Shown one piece after another: positions 691 to 9,856 of a DNA stretch of 64,000 nt. Each line of letters begins with the position of its first letter. Position 1 is the stretch's first letter. Position numbers and translations under genes: made by a program. The notes below the pieces were generated by a model. The model was not told where the DNA came from and did not search any database. It saw nothing but the letters and a program-made list of their open reading frames with translations. The stretch comes from an uncultured Acidobacteriia bacterium (GTDB lineage Bacteria > Acidobacteriota > Terriglobia > Bryobacterales > Bryobacteraceae): positions 1 through 64,000 of the forward strand of contig CAIVPR010000164.1 of assembly GCA_903907865.1 (NCBI GenBank), written 5' to 3'.

Positions 691-3042
691 GGGCTGAACT
701 GTTACGCGGCCGGCAACTACACGCAATCCACCCACCAGCAGCAGCAGTTCGGCGGCAGCGTCGGCGGACCGGCCATCAAGGACAAGCTGTTCTACTTCCT
801 GACCTACGACGGCTCCCGCAAAGTGGCTCCGATCAGCTACCTCAGCAGCTCGACCTTCCCGCAGACTTGCGCGGCCCAGATTTCGGCCGCTGTTTGCGCC
901 GCCGCGAACACCTTCGCCAAGTCGATCCTCGGCTCCTATCCCCGCAAAGCTAATCTGGACGTGGCCTTCGGCAAGTTGGACTACCAAGTCAACTCCAAGA
1001 ACCATGTGAACGGCTCGTTCAACTTCGACAACTTCAAGGCGCTGAACTCCTACCAGTCCTCGCCGACCTATTTGGGTACCTCGCTCACCGCCAACGGCAC
1101 CAACATCATCCACGAGCGCATCTTCGTCGCCAACTGGGATTCCGTAATCTCCAGCTCGATGGTGAACAACTTCCGCTTCCAGTGGTCGCGCGACCTTGAG
1201 GTCACTTCGGCCAACGGTTCCGCCCCCAGTGTCTCAGTGGCGACTAATGTGCTTGGCTACGGCCTGCCCAACGCGCTGCCCCGTCCGGCGTTCCCGGACG
1301 AACACCGGATCCAGTTAACCGACGTGCTCTCCTACACCAAGGGGCGCCACAACTTCAAGTTCGGCACCGACTTCAACGCCATCCACGAACTGCTGATCAA
1401 CCTGTTCCAGGGCGGCGGCGTGTACAGCTACACCGGTGCCAGCGCGTTCAGCAACTGGGTTGCGGACGTGAGCGGAACCAACCTCGGCGACGGTCTGACC
1501 GGCCGCCACTTCGGCTCCTTCGTGCAGGTCACCGACCCCGTCACCGGCGTCGGCAAGGACGACTTCTACGACAAGGACTTCGACGCCTTCGCCGAAGACT
1601 CCTGGAAGGTGCGCCCGAATCTGACCCTGAACCTCGGCGTGCGTTATGACATCCAGTTGATCCCGGCACCGCCGAAGCCCAACACCACCACCCCGCTCAC
1701 CACGCTCTACACCTCGACGATCCACATCGACAAGAAGGAGTTCGCTCCCCGCCTCGGATTCGCATGGTCGGTCAACAAGAGCACCGTGGTTCGCGGCGGC
1801 TACGGAATCTTCTACGCGAAGACGTCCAACAGCACCTACTACGCGACGCGCGTGGAAAACGGCTTCTTCCAGCAGACCTACAACTGCACGCCGACCACCT
1901 GCCCGCAGCTCAGCTTCCCGAACCTGATCTTCACGCCCCCGGGCTTGGCGCCGGCTGCTCCGTTCCCCGGTGCGCTCACCCCGCAGGTTACCCCGTTCAA
2001 GCCGGGCTCCAACACCGCAACGACCCGCGGCCAGTCACCGAATTGGCTGAATCCGCAGGTGCATGAAGGCGAGTTCGCCATCGAACGCCGCGTGGCCGAC
2101 AATACCAGCATTTCGGCCAGCTACGTGTTCAGCCGCGGCCTCCGGTTGCCGATCTTCATCGATTCCAACCTTGCGCCGTCCAACTCCACCAAGTCCTACG
2201 ACGTGACCAGCTCCACCGGCGTGACCTCGCAGACCGTGTCGGTGCCGTTCTACACGACCCGCCTCGATCCCACCGGTCCGATCCTCACCGGCTACAGCGA
2301 TGTCAACTCCTGGTACAACAGCTTCGTGCTGTCGGTCCGCCGCCAGATGAGCAAGGGCCTCGAGTTCACCGCCAACTATACTCTTTCGAAGACGGTTGAT
2401 GGCGGCCAGGTGACCGGTTCCAACGGCACCTTCAACGGTACCGACTACTCCATCGACCCGTACAACCGCAAGCTCGAATACGGCCTGTCCGACCTCGACC
2501 AGCGCCAACGGTTTGTCGCCAACGCCATGTACGTGCCGCAGTTCACCAGCAAGTTGTCCAAGCCTGCCAAGATGATCTTCGATGGCTTTAATTTCTCGGC
2601 CATCGTGACCGTCTCAACCGGTTTCCCGATCACCCCGTTCCTGAACATGAGCTCGGTCACGGGCGCACCGGACGGCGGTCCCACCGGCGGCGTGGTCAAC
2701 AACTCCGGCACCGGCAACGGCGGCCGCGCTCCTTGGATTGTCCGCAACCCCTATACCGGCCCGAGCTTCAAGGCTGTCGATTTCCGCATCGGCCGCGAGT
2801 TCAAGATTTGGGAGAAGGTGCGGTTCAACGTTCTGGCCGAAGCGTTCAACGTTTTCAACTTCACCAATGTCCTGACGGTGAACACGACGGCGTACAACTA
2901 CTCGGCTGCTGGCTCCGGCGTCTGCGCCGGCCACTCCAACGGCTGCCTGGCGGTCAACCCGACCTTCAAGGCACCGTCGACGACCAGCAACAACCTGTAC
3001 GGTCCGCGCCAGCTGCAGATTTCCGCCAAGCTGGTGTTCTAA
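691..3042 (+). pseudogene. TonB-dependent receptor (Oar-like), N-terminus replaced by IS66
   Basis: From about residue 230 of the open frame the protein is the middle and C-terminal part of an acidobacterial Oar-type outer-membrane receptor: QFGGSVGGPAIKDKLFYF, many aromatic-rich beta-strand segments, SWKVRPNLTLNLGVRYD, a FAPRLGFAW stretch, and a C-terminal strand ending in Phe (QISAKLVF), as expected for a Bam substrate. The signal peptide, the carboxypeptidase-regulatory-like domain and the plug are missing, replaced by transposase sequence. The barrel part shows no internal stop, so the truncation seems recent. Without a signal peptide it should not reach the outer membrane, so I call it a pseudogene. 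Confidence 0.8.
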
Positions 3043-3065
3043 TCCGATCCGCAGTTCAGTAGCTA

Positions 3066-3108
3066 CACGAAGCCCCCGACGGTCGAGCTGGCCATCGGGG
3101 GCTTCGTG
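3066..3108 (+). terminator. Rho-independent-type hairpin after the truncated receptor
   Basis: A 14-bp perfect stem (3066-3079 with 3095-3108, GC-rich core) has a 15-nt loop and lies 24 bases after the receptor stop. Only a weak T-rich stretch follows. It was probably the terminator of the original receptor gene. Confidence 0.65.
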
Positions 3109-3157
3109 CTATTCTGGTCTTTCGCGCGGATTTCGATCCGATAGCGACCTTCCCAAC

Positions 3158-3247
3158 GGAGAGATGGCCGAGCGGTTTAAGGCGCACGCTTGGAAAGCGT
3201 GTGTAGGGGAAACTCTACCGAGGGTTCGAATCCCTCTCTCTCCGCCA
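3158..3247 (+). tRNA. tRNA-Ser (anticodon GGA)
   Basis: The sequence folds as a class II tRNA. The acceptor stem GGAGAGA pairs with TCTCTCC, the D-loop holds AGCGGTTTAAGGC, and the anticodon stem ACGCT/AGCGT carries the loop TTGGAAA with anticodon GGA (Ser, codons UCC/UCU). A long variable arm (TGTAGGGGAAACTCTACC) and a T-arm with GGTTCGAATCC follow. Discriminator G and an encoded CCA end at 3247. The 3' end serves as the integration site of the element at 3224-5945, which leaves this copy of the tRNA intact. Confidence 0.96.
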
Positions 3248-3249
3248 TT
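3224..3249. repeat. Attachment-site repeat at the tRNA end (attL)
   Basis: These 26 bases, covering the T-arm 3' half, acceptor 3' strand and CCA of tRNA-Ser plus two more bases, are repeated exactly and in the same direction at 5920-5945. An exact repeat of a tRNA 3' end with a tyrosine recombinase gene beside it is the standard signature of tRNA-targeted integration. Confidence 0.9.
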
Positions 3250-3268
3250 CCATCCCTTTTGTTTTCCA

Positions 3269-4320
3269 TCAGTTAACAGCCTCTTTCCTTCCGTGTACCT
3301 CTGGTGTCCCCTTCGTTGAAGCGAGTACCAGCGTGTCCCTCGCCCATGCGCCCCTGACGTCGGCCTCCAATTGCTCCTGTCTGGCGGCAACCCACGGGTT
3401 GTAGTGCCTCTGGGTGACCCGTATCGAGGTGTGTCCGAGCAGAATCGACACTCGCTCCAGAGGAACCCCCTTCAACAGCAGGTCAACAGCGAATGTGTCG
3501 CGGAATCGATGGGCGTGACCGTCACGGATGCCCGCGAGCTTGAAGAGTTTCGAGAGATAAGCCATGTAGTGGCGTGAAGTGGCCTCCTTGTCCGACGTTC
3601 CAGACCAAAAAAAATACTGCTCATTCCCGCGTTCGACCGCGTCAAGGGCGTCCAGCACGAACCTCGGAAGCGGGATTCGGACTGGCGTACCGGTCTTGGC
3701 GGAGTACAGGAAGAGCGTGTCGCCCACGATCCGGTCACGCGACAAGGAAACGGCGTCCCCGATGCGCAGCCCGCTGTACCTCAGGAGCAGGACAAGCGCT
3801 CGAAGCCTCCGCCCGTTCCATTGCCCGGTACGCCCGTACGCGTCGGGGTACTGGTCGCAGGCCGCCAGTATCGCAGCCATCTCATCGGGGCTGAATGGCA
3901 ATGTTGGGTTCTGGCGGACTTTCGGACCCTTGATCGTGGTCGCCGGGTTCTTTTCGACCCATTCGGACTCGACACAAAACCGGAAGAACGCACGGAGCCG
4001 TTCGAGCTTCTTCGACGCCGTGAGCGGGCTTTGTGTCCAAGTATCGTAGTACTGTCGAACCATGGGAAGGTCAAACTCGACCAAGTAGCGGATTCCCTTT
4101 TCCACGGCGAACGCCTCCAACTGCTTGCTGTCCAACTGGTACTTCCTTATCGAACTGGGCATCAGCCGCCTTCGTTCAAGGTCCGCCATGAACTCCGCCG
4201 TGGCCTCGGACACCCTGACGGGCTCCGCCTCCTTCTTCGCACCGGGAACGGCGGTCGCCCCAGCAACTCGATTGCGTTGTCGATGCGTTCCTGCAACTCT
4301 GTCTTTGAAACTGCGGCCAT
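3269..4320 (-). CDS. Tyrosine recombinase/integrase (N-terminal frameshift)
   Basis: Phage-integrase family site-specific recombinase, expected to cut and rejoin DNA at the tRNA-Ser attachment site. The N-terminal SAM-like core-binding domain spans roughly the first 120 residues (SEATAEFMADLERR onward). The catalytic domain shows the full set: Arg in YSGLRIGD, Lys region SAKTGTPVRIPL, HAHRFRD (HxxR), LLGHTSI (His) and the tyrosine in QRHYNPW. The best start is the ATG at 4320, behind an AAGGAA ribosome site and opening MAAVSKTELQERIDNAIELL, but this start is in another frame. A -1 slip on the run of four G at 4261-4258 (minus strand) joins it to the integrase frame. The integrase frame itself stays open upstream to 4567 but without a convincing start. 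Programmed frameshift, mutation or sequencing error are all possible. Confidence 0.85.
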
Positions 4321-4349
4321 GTTCGTTTCCTTGCCTTTCGTCTGTTGAA

Positions 4350-4373
4350 TCCGGGCGGACCGTGCCGCCCGGA
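4350..4373 (-). other. GC-rich hairpin upstream of the integrase
   Basis: A 9-bp perfect stem (4350-4358 with 4365-4373) with a 6-nt loop lies between the basic-protein gene and the integrase start. It lacks a T-tract, so it could be a weak terminator, an attenuator, or a recombinase-binding structure. Function not shown by sequence alone. Confidence 0.35.
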
Positions 4374-4452
4374 ACGAGGATAAGGCTGGTCGGGGTGGAC
4401 GAATTCGGACGGGGGAATTTGTCGGGGCGGTTCAAGGCCAAACCCATGCCGG

Positions 4453-5091
4453 TCAACCGTGGCCGTCCCGACCAGCCTCGCCTTCCTCCCGCTTGCGCCT
4501 CTTCCTGATCGCGTCCATCAGGTCCCTGGCCTCGCCTTTCCTCCGGTAGCGGTTGTGCTTTTCCCAACCTTGAATGTGCCTCACATAGAGCTCAGGCCCC
4601 CGCATTCCCGCCTTCCAGTCCTCGTAGGCCCTCGTAACCCTCGCGGTGGGGCGTCGTCCGGCCTTGCGCTTGGGAGTGATCGCGGAACGCAGCGCGTTTG
4701 CCAGCCTCCCGCATTCCTGCTTCGAGAGACCGCCGCCCCAATGCTTGAGGATTTCATCCGCCGCGCGCGTGACGGCTTCCTTGGCCTCTCGGAAGGCTTC
4801 GGACTCGGCTGGGGCCGCGGGCCTTGCCTTGCGTTGCGCCTTGCGCTTGGGCGGGCGCTTGGCGGGGCGGGCCTTCGCAATCTTTGCGCGCTCTTCCTCC
4901 TCCTCCCGCCGCACGCGCTCGTCAAGGTCCGCGAAGACGGCGGGGTCCCTCCATCCCCCGCCTCCCTGCCCGCTCTCGGTCGTTCCGCCGCGCCGGGCCT
5001 TGCCCAAACCGTCCCTTTGCGGCACGGCTTGGGGACGGGGCTTTAGGGGCGGGGTAAGTGGCCTGTTTCCACCGCTAGGCATCGGCTGGAA
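4453..5091 (-). CDS. Basic, charged protein of the integrated element, function unknown
   Basis: I do not recognise this family. From the ATG at 5091 it is 212 residues. The first third is Gly/Pro/Arg-rich; a central stretch alternates Lys, Arg, Pro and Ala like histone-H1-type tails (KIAKARPAKRPPKRKAQR); the C-terminal half looks folded, with AYEDWKAGMRGPELY and HIQGWEKHNRYRRKGEARD followed by a Lys/Arg/Glu tail. The charge suggests nucleic-acid binding, possibly as a directionality or accessory factor. The ATG at 5091 lies just before the serine recombinase stop (17-nt overlap), so the two are likely translated together; a longer start at 5139 is possible. Codon-position GC and the ordered C-terminal half favour a real gene. 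Confidence 0.6.
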   Translation of the reverse strand, partial: FQPMPSGGNRPLTPPLKPRPQAVPQRDGLGKARRGGTTESGQGGGGWRDPAVFADLDERVRREEEEERAKIAKARPAKRPPKRKAQRKARPAAPAESEAFREAKEAVTRAADEILKHWGGGLSKQECGRLANALRSAITPKRKAGRRPTARVTRAYEDWKAGMRGPELYVRHIQGWEKHNRYRRKGEARDLMDAIRKRRKREEGEAGRDGHG

Positions 5092-5944
5092 CCTCCCCCC
5101 TTTTCGGCAAGGCCTCCAAAGTGCCGGATTGGTCGGCAACCGCCGCCGCGTGCGCCCTCCTTACCGCCGTGGGGCTCGCGTTCAGGCTCTTGGCGATCTG
5201 CCTCCAAGACAGACCTTCCTTGCGCAACTCCGCCACCTTGTCGCGCCTGAAGACGACGCGCGGGCGTCCGACTGGCCGACCGCTCCGGGTGCCCTTCTTC
5301 CTGACGCGCTCCATTCCCGCGCGGGTGCGCTCGCCCAACCGGAGGCGCTCCTGCTTTGCGACCGTGGCGAGGATGGCGAGAACGGCCTCCCGGAAGATTC
5401 CGCACGAATCGAGGTACTGCTCGGTGTGGGACCGCCAGGCGACGCCGAACGAGTCCAGCCGCTCCAAGTGCTTGAGCGTTTCGAGAACCCCCTCGCGGCT
5501 GAAGCGGTCGAGGGACCAGAACAGGAGGACGTCGAAACGCCTTTGGGCCGCGTCGCCCCACATGCGCTGGAATCCCGCGCGGTCCGCCTTGCCCCCCGAT
5601 TCCTCGTCTGTGTATTCGTCGACAATTAGCCACCCCTGCGTCTGGCAGAAGTGGCGGAGCTGGGCGCGCTGGTTGTCCAGTTCCTGACGCTTGCGCGGGC
5701 CGCTGGCGGTGGCGTCGCGCCGGTCGGCACGGGTGGAAACGCGGAGGTAGAGGGCTGCGCGTTTCGTGCATGAAAACGGCCCGGATTGTCCGTACGGCGG
5801 AGGGTCGCCGGGTGGTCCCGTGTACCCGCCGTGTACCTCCGTTTGGCTGGTGTGCCGTTTTTGGCGTTTCTGGCGTCTTGTAGAATCAATAACTTGCGTG
5901 TTCTCAATGGCGTCGGGTAGTTCGAATCCCTCTCTCTCCGCCAT
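5075..5944 (-). CDS. Serine recombinase (resolvase/invertase type), start uncertain
   Basis: The conserved part begins RAALYLRVSTR, carrying the nucleophilic Ser, and continues with QELDNQRAQLR, DEYTDEESGGKADRAGFQRM, LLFWSLDRFSREG and the E-helix LAILATVAKQERLRLGERTRAG. A short C-terminal helix-turn-helix (LSWRQIAKSLNASPTAVRR) follows, as in small resolvases and invertases. The recombinase domain starts near 5770, but no good start codon sits there in frame. The first in-frame ATG is at 5944, inside the att repeat, so the first residues (MAEREGFEL) would be read from ex-tRNA sequence. The ATG closest to the domain, at 5772, is in another frame. The gene overlaps the downstream basic-protein gene and probably shares its transcript. 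Confidence 0.8.
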   Translation of the reverse strand: MAEREGFELPDAIENTQVIDSTRRQKRQKRHTSQTEVHGGYTGPPGDPPPYGQSGPFSCTKRAALYLRVSTRADRRDATASGPRKRQELDNQRAQLRHFCQTQGWLIVDEYTDEESGGKADRAGFQRMWGDAAQRRFDVLLFWSLDRFSREGVLETLKHLERLDSFGVAWRSHTEQYLDSCGIFREAVLAILATVAKQERLRLGERTRAGMERVRKKGTRSGRPVGRPRVVFRRDKVAELRKEGLSWRQIAKSLNASPTAVRRAHAAAVADQSGTLEALPKRGEVPADA

Positions 5945-5945
5945 T
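5920..5945. repeat. Attachment-site repeat at the distal end (attR)
   Basis: Exact 26-bp direct copy of 3224-3249 (3' end of tRNA-Ser). The flanking bases differ from the first copy on both sides, so the repeat length is well defined. The rest of the tRNA is absent here, as expected for the distal end of an element inserted at a tRNA 3' end. Confidence 0.9.
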
Positions 5946-5949
5946 TTCT

Positions 5950-6180
5950 TTGTTCCTGTGGACACTTCCAAGGCCGTTGTGCTCGTTTCCATCCTTCTGC
6001 CATCGGAAGTTGCGGCGGCGGATGTGCGAGACGCCAAGATTCCCCCCGACCACCCGCACCGATTCCGCCGCACGCTGGCGAAGATTGTTCCTAAAGGGTG
6101 CAACCGTCGAGGACGTCGAAACGCTCCAGGTGGTGGCTCAGTACACCAAGAACGGCACAGTGCTCTTTCCCCGAAATTGA
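5950..6180 (+). pseudogene. Degenerate tyrosine-recombinase fragment beside attR
   Basis: Two plus-strand frames together keep traces of an integrase C-terminus: HPHRFRRTLAK resembles the HxxR box (compare HAHRFRDTFA in the intact integrase), and in a second frame FLKGATVEDVETL followed by QYTKNG resembles the LLKGVPLERVSI segment and the residues before the catalytic Tyr. The region needs at least one frameshift and has lost the LLGH box. It is oriented opposite to the intact integrase. It fits a relic of an earlier integration at this tRNA. The remainder up to 6330 shows no gene. Confidence 0.5.
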
Positions 6181-6330
6181 TGCACAACTCTTGGCGCAGG
6201 TTTTCAACTTCGGCGTTGAATCCCACGTGACAGCCTCGACGCTATGGTCTGGGCGATAGGGGGTCTTGTGGAGCAGGGGCTTGAGCTGCCGAGGACTCAC
6301 TGGATTGAGGCGTGAGGTGTGAGGCTGGGT

Positions 6331-7248
6331 TCAGTTTGCGCCTCCGGAGAACGTCGTCTGTCGTAGCCTCGGCATATGCTCAAGTACCTCCACGACTTCG
6401 TAGGCAACGTTGGTGTAGATGCCAGTGCGCGGATCGCGAGATTGTTTCATGGCGAGGACTACTTTCAAGCCGTCTCCGGGTGCGATTGTGATCATGTGGT
6501 CGGAGAATTTTGTGTGAAACGCGCTGTCATTGACTGGAGCCGAAATCTTGACGCCGCGCCACATGAATTCCCACTTGCGGGTTGAGCGCTCGAGAATCGC
6601 CTTCACAATTTGGAGGTCGCACTGTTCCTTCACAACCCGCGTTTCCGGGTCATCTTCTTCTGTGAGGGCAATCTCTCTAATCGTTTCCTGAGAGATAATC
6701 ACGTCCGGGGGCGGTGAATCCATCTTTGGGACGAAGGCAATGCCCTTAACTTTGTCGTCAGCGCTAATCCCTTCAAGCGTCTTGCTGATCGCTCTCTTGA
6801 ATTGTCCATTTTGCTCGGCGATTCGCGTGGCATCGTAGACAGTTCGGGGGATGATGATTCGGTCGTGCCCTTGCTCCACGACAACTTCATCGGCATGGAT
6901 TTCAATCTTAACCTTGTCGGGTGGCGACAGCAGTTGAAAAATAAAGCTTGCGATGACGCTCAGAACAACGCTGCTGACGGCTTGGGCAGAAAACAGATTG
7001 CCAGACTCTTTGTAGACCGCTCGTAAGAGGGCGCGGAAGCTGCCAGGACCAACAGCTTCGACCACAATCTCGATGTCGTAGCCATGGTTTATTGATGCGT
7101 TCGCAGCTTTGGCGGCATCTGCAATTCCAACCAGCGTTGAGGCAAGCGTGTAGGCGTTGATCCGTTGGCCTTCTGTGACGAAGTGGATCACGAAGGCGTC
7201 TTCGAATTGTGCGACGTTGATGGTAGCCACCTTCGGTGAGGATATCAC
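6331..7248 (-). CDS. Hypothetical protein with a central membrane segment
   Basis: 305 residues, family not recognised by name. The N-terminal ~80 residues form a soluble domain with FVTEGQRINAYTLASTLVGIADAAKAAN and an acidic-hydrophobic EIVVEAVGPGSF motif. A hydrophobic segment, SSVVLSVIASFIFQLL, near residues 92-107 is a probable membrane anchor. The remaining ~190 residues are soluble, with a charged VKIEIHADEVVVEQGHDRIIIP stretch. Base composition is clearly less GC-rich than the surrounding genes. It is divergent from the gene at 7335 with 86 bases between the starts, which suggests a shared control region. Transfer from elsewhere is likely; a role in defence or stress is possible but not shown. 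Confidence 0.7.
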   Translation of the reverse strand: MISSPKVATINVAQFEDAFVIHFVTEGQRINAYTLASTLVGIADAAKAANASINHGYDIEIVVEAVGPGSFRALLRAVYKESGNLFSAQAVSSVVLSVIASFIFQLLSPPDKVKIEIHADEVVVEQGHDRIIIPRTVYDATRIAEQNGQFKRAISKTLEGISADDKVKGIAFVPKMDSPPPDVIISQETIREIALTEEDDPETRVVKEQCDLQIVKAILERSTRKWEFMWRGVKISAPVNDSAFHTKFSDHMITIAPGDGLKVVLAMKQSRDPRTGIYTNVAYEVVEVLEHMPRLRQTTFSGGAN

Positions 7249-7334
7249 CCTCGTGTAAACGGTCCGGCGCTCTGGCGAACTCCGAAAAGGTATACTGGGC
7301 TCGACAGCCAGAGTGAAGTCTGGCGGAGCTTCGA

Positions 7335-8315
7335 GTGGATTTGCAGACTTTTTTCACTCTGATACCGGGTGTCCTTAGCATCGTCGGGTTCTTCGGCTGG
7401 CTTTGGCAGTTGAGCCACTCCGAACGCACGCGGGGATGGGCTATCGTCTGGCTCTCCGTGTTCTTGGCGTTCGCTCTCATCACGGTCGTGCTCTACAAAC
7501 GCCAACGTCCACAAGCCAGCGTGAGCGAGGAGTCGGCAAAGACCCGCCAAGAGTTGAGCGAGGAACTTCGCAGGAATCGCATCGACGCACAGGACGGCAC
7601 CGCCGAGACCAACCGGCTCGTTAGGGATATGCACGCTGCGCTCGCAGAGGTTCTTCGCGTCCTTGCATCACCGAACGCTTCCGTTGCCGACCTTCAAGCT
7701 CAAATTGCCGTTCTCACCCTTGCCAAAGCCCGTGCCGAGCAGATTCCTGACCTCGGTACTCGGCGCTCAGTCACCGCCGACATCAGTAAGCTCCAATCCG
7801 CAGTTTCGGAGAAGGCACGAACTCAGGCGTCGGTTGCGGTTGCGACACCACGAGGTGAGGGTGCCGCTGCCGTTGTGAAGTCAGATGTGCCATTGAGCGA
7901 GGCGAAGCAAGCGAGAGCTCCGAAGAACCCTGACGTGATCGTGTATTCCCTCCTCAGCAAGAGTCAAAGGAATACGGAGCCAAGCGCAACTACTGCCATG
8001 CCGAAGCAAGTGGTGGCGCCAATGAAGATAACGGCTGTATCTTTCTTTTACACTGACGATATAGTAACTGATTCTACAACTTATACGGCAACCATACAAG
8101 GGGATGGTTTTGACCCAGCGACGGTTGCCGTCACGATTGACGGTATGGGGTGCCGCCCGGGATTCATAAGCAATTCGGCCTTGGGTAATAAGACCTCTAC
8201 ATCTATTGTGCTGCCCAATCTCACATTGCCTCGGCATGTTGTATGCTCGGCTATTGTCAAGAATGACAGTAATGCCCAAAGTGCGACTATGCCGCTACTT
8301 GTACCCGGCCGCTAG
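7335..8315 (+). CDS. Hypothetical membrane protein with coiled coil and TIG-like C-terminus
   Basis: 326 residues. Two hydrophobic segments (residues ~5-25, TLIPGVLSIVGFFGWLW; ~36-54, AIVWLSVFLAFALITVVLY) would give a small hairpin anchor. A charged helical stretch (SEESAKTRQELSEELRRNR... to about residue 150) is likely a coiled coil. The C-terminal ~100 residues (MKITAVSFFYTDDI onward, with IQGDGFDPATVAVTIDG) resemble an IPT/TIG immunoglobulin-like fold with a Cys pair. The DNA between about 8020 and 8280 is strikingly AT-rich for this genome. No function can be assigned; topology and divergence from the 6331-7248 gene suggest they act together. Confidence 0.65.
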   Translation: MDLQTFFTLIPGVLSIVGFFGWLWQLSHSERTRGWAIVWLSVFLAFALITVVLYKRQRPQASVSEESAKTRQELSEELRRNRIDAQDGTAETNRLVRDMHAALAEVLRVLASPNASVADLQAQIAVLTLAKARAEQIPDLGTRRSVTADISKLQSAVSEKARTQASVAVATPRGEGAAAVVKSDVPLSEAKQARAPKNPDVIVYSLLSKSQRNTEPSATTAMPKQVVAPMKITAVSFFYTDDIVTDSTTYTATIQGDGFDPATVAVTIDGMGCRPGFISNSALGNKTSTSIVLPNLTLPRHVVCSAIVKNDSNAQSATMPLLVPGR

Positions 8316-8440
8316 AGGCGAAATGCTCTCGTCCTCGGATTGAAGGGGTGAACAAGCACGACGGCCCAACCGTCGCCTTCCACGTCAAGGAGGGGAAATC
8401 ATTGCCGTGTAGATGAATTCCTTCCTCTGAAGAGCATTGA

Positions 8441-9856
8441 TTACAAAACTGTCGTGATCACTTCGCCTTGCACCTCGGTGAGCCGCTCCCGACGTCCCTG
8501 GTGCAGATAGCTCAGCGCGTTCTGCTCCAGCCCGAGTTGGTGCAACACCGTAGTGTGGATATCCCGTAGATGGTGCGGTTCCTGAACCGCACTCAGTCCG
8601 ATTTCGTCCGTTGCGCCCGCCGCCACGCCGCCTTTGACGCCGCCACCGGCCATCCAGACCGTGTAGCCGGTATTGTTGTGGTCGCGACCCTTGCCGCCCT
8701 GCGCCTCCGGGGTGCGTCCGAACTCGCCGCCCCAAACCACGAGCGTCGATTCCAGCAGCCCGCGCTGCTTCAGGTCCTTCACGAGCCCCGCGATCGGCTT
8801 GTCCGTCTTGGCGGCCATCCGCAGGTGGTTTTCCTCGATGTCGTCATGCGCGTCCCATTGCGAAACCGCCGGACCCCCGGACACCAGGACCACGAACCGC
8901 ACACCCTTCTCGACCAGCCGACGGGCCAGCAGGCAGCGGCGGCCGAAGTCGTCCGTGACGGGGTCGCCCATGCCGTAGAGGTCCTGGACGTGCTTCGGCT
9001 CGCCGGAGATGTCGAAGACCGCCGGGGCCTCGGTCTGCATCTTGAATGCGAGGTCGTAGGTGTTGAGGCGCGCCGAAAACTCCTCGTCGTCGGCCTGCAT
9101 GCGGGCCCCGTCGAGGTCGTGCACCAGCTTGAGCGTGCGCGCCCGTTGGGCCTCGGAGACGCCCTGCGGGAGTTCGAGGTTCAAGACCGGCTTGCGTCCG
9201 GCGCGGAAGATGTTGGCTTGGTAGACCGACGGTAGGAACGCGTTCGAATACACCGGCTGGCCGGCCTCGATGGTTCCGAACGGGTCGGGAATCACCACGT
9301 AGCCGGGCAGGGAATCGCTTTCGGAACCCAAGCCGTACATGGCCCACGCGCCCATGCTGGGGAATCCGGGGATGATGCGGCCGGTGAAGAACTGGTACTG
9401 CGCGGCCGAGTGCACCACTGCGTCCGAGGTCGTGGACCGGATCACCGCCAGGTCGTCGACGCATGTCGCCGTGTGGGGCAGCAGGTCGGACACCCACAGC
9501 CCGCTCTTGCCGTGCTGCTTGAAGGTCCGCTTGGTGCCCATCAGGCGCGGTTCGCCCTTGATGAACTGCCTCGGGACGCGTCCGAAACTGGCGGGCATCG
9601 GCTGGCCGTCCAGCTTGTTGAGCAGCGGCTTGGGGTCGAAGGTTTCCAGATGGCTCGGCCCGCCCGCCATGAACAGCACGATAACCGACTTCGCCTTGGC
9701 CGGGAAATGCGGCTTCTTTGCTGCCAGCGGATTCACCCCCGCGGCCTTCGCCCGTTCCTCCGCCAGCATCGCGGCCAACGCGACCGAGCCGAAGCCGTTG
9801 AAGGCGTCCGTGATGAATTCGCGCCGGTTGCGGGTGGGTTTCGAGTGCGGTTCCAT
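8441..9856 (-). CDS. DUF1501 secreted protein (sulfatase-like fold)
   Basis: 471 residues matching the DUF1501 family common in Planctomycetes and Acidobacteria. The start opens with a twin-arginine-like leader (RNRREFITDAFNGFGSVALAAM). Typical family stretches follow: KSVIVLFMAGGPSHLETFDPKP near residue 60, then RSTTSDAVVHSAAQYQFFTG, a SDSLPGYVVIPD segment, and near the end WGGEFGRTPEAQGGKGRDHN with HHLRDIHTTVLHQLG. The family is related to alkaline-phosphatase/sulfatase folds; its substrate is unknown. The ATG comes one base after the stop of the DUF1549/DUF1553 gene (TGACATG), so the two are translated together, the usual arrangement for this pair. Confidence 0.9.
   Translation of the reverse strand: MEPHSKPTRNRREFITDAFNGFGSVALAAMLAEERAKAAGVNPLAAKKPHFPAKAKSVIVLFMAGGPSHLETFDPKPLLNKLDGQPMPASFGRVPRQFIKGEPRLMGTKRTFKQHGKSGLWVSDLLPHTATCVDDLAVIRSTTSDAVVHSAAQYQFFTGRIIPGFPSMGAWAMYGLGSESDSLPGYVVIPDPFGTIEAGQPVYSNAFLPSVYQANIFRAGRKPVLNLELPQGVSEAQRARTLKLVHDLDGARMQADDEEFSARLNTYDLAFKMQTEAPAVFDISGEPKHVQDLYGMGDPVTDDFGRRCLLARRLVEKGVRFVVLVSGGPAVSQWDAHDDIEENHLRMAAKTDKPIAGLVKDLKQRGLLESTLVVWGGEFGRTPEAQGGKGRDHNNTGYTVWMAGGGVKGGVAAGATDEIGLSAVQEPHHLRDIHTTVLHQLGLEQNALSYLHQGRRERLTEVQGEVITTVL

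Follow-up and report, generated by a model that had tools for sequence, protein, structure and literature searches.

The sizes of Islander-class tRNA islands peak at 13.6 and 39.9 kb in the available text of PMC4383910, and the lambda-type complex integrases, in the portion of PMC8138268 at hand, possess an arm-binding domain that is essential for mobility function. Here we discuss a 2.7-kb element inserted at a tRNA-Ser(GGA) gene in a 64,000-nucleotide stretch of DNA (the window; contig CAIVPR010000164.1, positions 1 to 64,000 of the forward strand) from an uncultured Acidobacteriia bacterium of the Bryobacteraceae, class Terriglobia (assembly GCA_903907865.1, a draft genome of 7.5 Mb in 186 contigs). 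Between its two attachment (att) sites the element carries genes for a tyrosine recombinase (TyrR), a small serine recombinase (SerR) and a basic protein (Basic). With a probability of roughly 0.7, it is the remnant, after internal deletion, of a tRNA-targeting element that entered by lambda-type TyrR recombination. According to the available text of PMC4383910, tRNA genes are not among the known targets of serine integrases, and TyrR therefore fits as the integrase here. The features under discussion are the following (IHF, integration host factor; HTH, helix-turn-helix; E, expectation value; ORF, open reading frame).

3158 to 3247, plus strand: intact tRNA-Ser(GGA) gene, the integration target (ARAGORN; Rfam RF00005, 60.9 bits)
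3224 to 3249, plus strand: attL core, the 26-bp 3′ end of the tRNA-Ser gene (exact repeat; the similarity of relatives stops there)
3269 to 4258, minus strand: TyrR, core-binding and catalytic domains, with the N-terminal domain and normal start gone (PF00589, E 1.7e-19; alignment; tblastn)
3293 to 3310, plus strand: putative P′-side arm repeats GTGTACC (3293 to 3299) and GTGTCCC (3304 to 3310), at +46 and +57 relative to the tRNA end
4258 to 4320, minus strand: stub of a gene for an acidic protein, about 21 codons, truncated and out of frame with TyrR (match to the acidic ORF of locus L155; codon-position GC)
4453 to 5082, minus strand: Basic, its start overlapping the SerR stop (ATGCCTAG) (codon-position GC; relatives in the order)
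5075 to 5770, minus strand: SerR, a resolvase/invertase-type serine recombinase (PF00239, E 5.4e-29; weak C-terminal HTH matches)
5819 to 5839, plus strand: putative P-side arm repeats, GTGTACC twice, 11 bp apart (5820, 5831), in a block that recurs in the order
5884 to 5896, plus strand: IHF-consensus box AATCAATAACTTG (motif match)
5920 to 5945, plus strand: attR core, the displaced 26-bp tRNA 3′ end (exact repeat)
6027 to 6104, plus strand: decayed tyrosine recombinase fragment outside attR (59% over 27 amino acids to the TyrR of locus L132, E 8e-9)

The sequence GTTCGAATCCCTCTCTCTCCGCCATT, which comprises the last 24 bases of the tRNA followed by TT, is identical and in the same orientation in both att cores, and the 64-kb window holds no further copy of its 24-base core at six or fewer mismatches. 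Identity over 26 bp that sits exactly on the 3′ end of a tRNA is not chance. G015 and G018, two congeneric genomes, match the window at 82% identity over about 2.56 kb upstream and through the tRNA, and the similarity stops at 3249 (G015) and 3248 (G018), i.e., at the end of the repeat; beyond the tRNA, neither genome matches the element or the downstream flank of the window. The insertion is real because the similarity to these two syntenic genomes is lost exactly at the att core. An earlier reading made from the letters alone (the sequence-only reading) had reported an exact 26-bp repeat of the tRNA-Ser 3′ end at both ends of an att-bounded element, and on both points it was right. Moreover, the element has what identifies a genomic island: it is bounded by an intact tRNA and a displaced 3′ fragment in the same orientation, and a tyrosine integrase gene lies inside it, adjoining the tRNA. 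The GC content of the element (0.639) is nearly that of the window (0.623), and composition therefore gives no foreign mark. All three genes between the repeats are on the minus strand. Codon-position GC backs their frames and, in addition, a frame switch near 4260. Differences from one relative per gene concentrate at third codon positions (positions 1/2/3: 66/45/104 for SerR against L036, 96/81/180 for TyrR against L104 and 46/34/71 for Basic against L154).

The catalytic residues of TyrR are present in the alignment. The sequence-only description of an intact-looking catalytic domain holds for that domain; it does not extend to the N-terminus. Between 4330 and 4150, the only ATG, GTG or TTG codons in the TyrR frame are GTG 4213, ATG 4189 and ATG 4162. 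The TyrR of relatives begins with a domain that has a C-x-C and a W/H-x-x-G...SLKT-like pattern and which, by analogy, may be read as the arm-binding domain. This domain, as judged by eye, is found in 14 of 16 aligned rows of the tRNA-linked clade and is missing in the window and in L109; the closest relative, L104, has it. The best tblastn match of the domain within the element has an E of 3.5, compared with 7e-27 in the control locus L105. Since the arm-binding domain is essential for such integrases (PMC8138268, as far as the text at hand goes), the copy in the window is probably immobile alone, and no other close TyrR was found in its own genome, where two further matches (three in total) are 29 to 30% identical.

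Relatives of TyrR with an E of at most 1e-20 were found in 61 of 151 genomes, the window's own among them. A tRNA gene (tRNA-Ser, -Cys, -Lys, -Leu or -Phe) lies within 500 bp of the TyrR frame at 15 of the 39 loci that were fetched (L104 to L143 without L142); the loci of family f3 (family labels, f1 for the window's own and f3, come from the genome search tool) are among those with no tRNA at this distance. The TyrR of L104, 61% identical to that of the window, ends beside tRNA-Ser(cga), and the tree groups the two at 99/96 support in a clade with many tRNA-linked members.

Two further breaks accompany the loss in TyrR. From 5944, inside attR, to its catalytic domain, SerR is without an in-frame ATG, GTG or TTG codon, and in-frame GTG or TTG codons are present at the corresponding place in L158 and L187. 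We note that in the window (5078-5944), L158:2313-3323 and L187:718-1467 no stop codon interrupts the SerR frame across the arm block and the att core, which may be due to chance. The other break lies next to TyrR, where an ATG at 4320 opens MAAVSKTELQERIDNAIELLG, which resembles a portion of the small acidic ORF of L155 (57% over 21 columns, E 0.002). Hence, where the sequence-only reading saw only three genes, these three are confirmed and the truncated start of a fourth appears to be present at 4320-4258. Collectively, the missing domain and start of TyrR, the acidic stub that is out of frame and the SerR with no start lead us to ascribe the small size to internal deletion, which explains it better than compactness by design.

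The ends of the element appear, from their sequence, to form a lambda-like attP that is common to other Terriglobia tRNA islands; the attP of phage lambda is the layout used for comparison. Paired repeats flank the core on both sides, at 3293 and 3304 (one mismatch) and at 5820 and 5831, and are putative arm sites. On the P′ side, GTGTACC is found at the offsets of the window in L104, L105 and L106 (both copies) and in L133 (first copy). Among 16 convergent TyrR-tRNA pairs, it lies at +46 in five and again at +57 in three, and 0.74% of random 161-bp stretches hold it. In half of these pairs (8 of 16, window included), 25 nt separate the end of the TyrR frame from that of the tRNA; one of the eight, L156, is from another TyrR clade. 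L109, L135 and L038 have different repeats at about equal spacing, as judged by eye.

The attR-side block (5812-5912 in the window) has 25 matching places, spread over 23 of the 257 genomes of the order (the window's own among them), and longer flanks were read for 23 of these places (G292 and G315 left out). By eye, 22 of the 25 printed blocks run into a tRNA-like end closing in CCA, the exceptions being L108, L186 and L203. A direct repeat of at least 8 of 9 bases at 10- to 12-bp spacing is present in 20 of 26 blocks and in 2.6% of random stretches; WATCARNNNNTTR, which we take to be the IHF consensus and by which the box at 5884-5896 was named, is exact in 17 of 26 and has at most one mismatch in 24 of 26 (random, 0.6% and 4.3%). 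This set of 26 omits a duplicate (L205_368) and a block cut by a contig end (L192) and includes L048. The arm repeat varies by sub-lineage (GTGTACC, GTGTACGAT, TTGTACAA, ACGTAAG) while the box is nearly constant, as would be expected if the repeats were read by the integrase and the box by a host protein. Alternatively, the repeats could be excisionase sites. Among nine att-bounded islands that were reached by other routes, an IHF-like box lies 16 to 21 bp from the att site in L106, L038 and L063. At L196, tandem attR blocks about 5 kb apart (1139-1265 and 6192-6319) suggest stacked elements at one tRNA.

SerR is a small resolvase-type enzyme by its PF00239 match, as the sequence-only reading had it. 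Just 4 of 28 attR-side blocks have SerR within 2.5 kb on their inner side (window, L158, L187 and L190; L137, the same DNA as L160, is dropped from this count, and 5 of the 28 have less than 1.2 kb of inside sequence). SerR is immediately upstream of TyrR at a tRNA also in L038, with a 27-bp att repeat, and both genes lie inside att-bounded tRNA islands in L063 and L065, the TyrR of L065 being split over two frames. The closest relative of SerR, 66 to 70% identical depending on the method, is in L036 between rhamnosidase-like and cytochrome c-like genes on a 16.9-kb contig with no TyrR and no tRNA. This distribution suggests that SerR is probably best read as an accessory near attR, a multimer resolvase, and not as a second integration chemistry. 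The own genome has a second island (L056:5969-9154, contig C74) at a tRNA-Phe gene with a 19-bp att repeat, where a 5′ fragment of SerR, 88% identical to 5629-5768 of the window, is located beside attR. One gene of that island has weak matches to a TIR effector in PADLOC (E 5e-7) and to Nuc_deoxyrib_tr in Pfam (E 9e-5, below the curated cut-off).

Basic is indeed very basic (53 K+R against 29 D+E in 209 residues) and, in keeping with its description as an unknown protein, has no match in Pfam or NCBIfam; its predicted structure is all helices at low confidence (mean pLDDT 59, from a two-row alignment). Relatives are present at 10 loci in 8 of the 257 genomes of the order, own included, and the Terriglobia record JAIQFE010000051.1 also carries the gene. 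Basic occurs together with TyrR in the att-bounded tRNA islands L057, L058, L059 and L156. It adjoins SerR in the window, in L054 (a partial Basic match of 41 residues) and in L158 (a weak match, E 3e-5), with no TyrR detected in the latter two. In L155, it shares a contig with a TyrR about 8 kb distant, and neither recombinase was detected with it in L154 and L157, both at or near contig ends. The sequence-only reading had proposed a compact family defined by the three genes. The pairs SerR and Basic, TyrR and Basic, and SerR and TyrR do recur, but the full set was found in the window only, i.e., at 1 of 10 Basic loci (three to four of the others are on short contigs or near ends). In addition, no SerR was detected within the 16 kb read around L104, the closest TyrR relative, and the closest SerR relative has no TyrR. 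A three-gene family of this kind is not borne out.

The four islands in which Basic accompanies TyrR are 7- to 9-kb att-bounded tRNA elements that encode an integrase, Basic, a small acidic protein and a Rep of the rolling-circle kind. All four have Rep_1 (E 2e-74 to 6e-77), acidic ORFs of the same family as that of L155 follow Basic directly in each of them, and an HTH_17/AlpA-like candidate for an excisionase (Xis) is present in L057 and L156, with a tblastn match in L059. The Rep of L057 has no tblastn match to 3250-5919 of the window at E 1. The sequence-only reading had put forward Basic as a possible architectural or directionality factor; these neighbors suggest a replication or maintenance accessory role for it. 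A further att-bounded island, at a tRNA-Ser gene (L106:375-9471), has a TyrR 53% identical to that of the window; one AbiEi-like and two AbiEii-like genes make up a defence cargo in this family.

The course of events that best accommodates these data can be outlined as follows. An element of the tRNA-targeting family would have entered the tRNA-Ser(GGA) gene through lambda-type recombination by its tyrosine integrase. The N-terminal domain of the integrase would bridge the 11-bp-spaced arm repeats of both attP arms, the consensus box would be where an IHF-like protein bends the P arm, and the strands would be exchanged within the 3′ end of the tRNA, which stays intact. A later internal deletion would then have removed the N-terminal domain of the integrase together with the cargo and whatever replication gene there was, leaving the att sites, SerR, Basic, the acidic stub and a TyrR core joined out of frame. 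SerR most likely once resolved multimers of the circle in its excised or replicating state, and the Rep_1 and Xis-like neighbors in the Basic islands suggest that Basic and the acidic protein were a replication or maintenance pair.

Several observations weigh against this course of events. The match of the acidic stub covers 21 residues only, and its E of 0.002 becomes 0.065 in the reverse search. GTGTACC is absent within 161 bp in 11 of the 16 TyrR-tRNA pairs, and the box is not at 16 to 21 bp from the att site in L056, L057, L058, L059, L065 and L156. The motif conservation in the blocks is partly selected because most blocks were found by their similarity to that of the window. Moreover, the TyrR of the Rep islands belongs to other clades, and no complete ancestor of precisely this element was encountered. 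Finally, both frame problems could be assembly errors.

A different unit, from the related family f3, bears on the possibility that the two recombinases act together. Genome G122 contains two copies, 97% identical, of a 1,729-bp unit with unrelated flanks (L123:4588-6316 and L138:7027-8755). The unit consists of SerR and TyrR only, in overlapping genes, its TyrR has no N-terminal domain, and its left end is a 20-bp palindrome. SerR is directly upstream of 13 of 15 TyrRs in one clade, which is separate from that of the window. In a class-wide sample of 250 genomes, where SerR and TyrR matches at their E-value limits were compared by position, adjacent pairs were found in four (G122, G124, G125 and G126; genus g78). 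Further pairs are present in G132 and G134 (genus g82), G135 and G136, and a DNA match in G139 spans both genes. In G124 and G125, the sequences to the left and to the right of the second copy have their matches at different places. A search of 10 genomes revealed no empty site, and hence it is the copies that suggest mobility. The f3 unit is a real candidate for a dual-recombinase element on this sequence evidence and, if mobile, an unusual transposable element. We regard it as a tentative and rather doubtful idea that SerR and TyrR form a cooperating pair in Terriglobia mobile DNA, with the f3 unit as an insertion-sequence-like element that employs both chemistries and the window as a parallel case, a tRNA island in which TyrR has likewise lost the N-terminal domain.

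For the locus in the window, the corresponding explanation is a genuine minimal element, in which TyrR, starting at GTG 4213 or ATG 4189, works in a simple manner and SerR or Basic provides synapsis or directionality. The catalytic residues of TyrR, the enrichment of changes at third positions, the intact att sites and the f3 precedent of a domain-less TyrR encoded with SerR agree with it. However, the arm repeats persist although the domain expected to read them is gone, and the TyrR of the window falls in the tRNA clade, in which most members bear the domain, rather than in the SerR-linked f3 clade. Both recombinases also have no normal start, and a second copy of the layout was not found. 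We consider this explanation unlikely; the two recombinases in the window are probably not a working two-enzyme machine.

Improbable too is a composite origin, with a SerR-Basic unit that settled in a pre-existing tRNA island, at its attR end, and is functionally unlinked to TyrR. The TyrR-free surroundings of SerR in L036, the SerR-Basic adjacency in L054 and L158, and the position of SerR near attR in L187 and L190, with the fragment in L056, would all follow from it. SerR and TyrR, however, share islands at other spacings (L038, L063 and L065), and no ends of a separate SerR-Basic unit were seen, though no dedicated search was made. It is hard to credit that the element is an intact small island whose frame breaks are assembly errors: the genome is a draft and single-base shifts would account for both frames, but a one-base error cannot explain why the N-terminal domain of TyrR is unmatched in every frame of the element. 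A phage or plasmid origin is rejected, given only weak or distant matches for TyrR (at best 35% identity to a Tunturiibacter phage integrase, and weak plasmid matches none of which covers 80%) and SerR (about 50% identity to recombinases on Hymenobacter plasmids, and below 60% in all 212 matching plasmid records), no plasmid match for Basic at E 0.01, and no relative of Basic or SerR confirmed among viral contigs by pattern scans, which with a single protein reach close relatives only.

As to the surroundings, an Rfam scan of 2800-8600 gave the tRNA as the sole match. The decayed fragment outside attR is frameshifted and in the opposite orientation, and its nearest relative is the L132 TyrR beside tRNA-Ser(gga); distant TyrRs (27 to 29% identical) follow tRNA-Ser(gga) in G004 and G012. 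On these grounds tRNA-Ser(gga) is a repeatedly used site. The gene just past attR (6331-7248, minus strand) matches both the PADLOC candidate PDC-S42 (E 3.5e-19) and the NCBIfam family LAPAL, a putative phage structural protein (E 3.4e-52).

Read as a deletion remnant, an odd 2.7-kb locus becomes a member of a recognizable Terriglobia tRNA-island family. The attP layout of this family can be read, so that the DNA ends alone suffice to find such islands. The locus also indicates that an apparently minimal element can arise through deletion.

Deletion derivatives that are bounded by att sites and mobilizable in cis (CIMEs) keep their att sites and have lost or broken mobility genes. The element in the window resembles them in both respects and differs in that its own genome yielded no close TyrR relative as a helper. 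It shares with RIT elements, as presented in the available text of PMC3414803, several head-to-tail recombinase genes, compactness and short overlaps; in RIT elements, however, these genes are three tyrosine recombinases, whereas the window and the f3 unit have one serine and one tyrosine recombinase. Among the literature matches listed, as far as their available text goes, neither a two-gene element with a serine and a tyrosine recombinase nor this island family is described. For Solibacter, the accessible part of PMC3174227 reports numerous integrases and 16 candidate islands that have tRNA genes, and it does not describe the island anatomy of the window. The Islander-class islands (PMC4383910, same portion as above) likewise have an intact tRNA, a displaced 3′ fragment in the same orientation and an integrase beside the tRNA; the element in the window differs from them in its 2.7-kb size, in the integrase that has no N-terminal domain or start and in the small serine recombinase that it carries. 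Compared with the complex integrases (PMC8138268, within the text at hand), the copy in the window has lost the N-terminal domain and the arm repeat differs between sub-lineages, whereas the paired arm repeats, the IHF-consensus box and the core in a tRNA gene correspond to a lambda-type attP, and the relatives of the window carry an N-terminal domain that, by analogy, may bind the arms.

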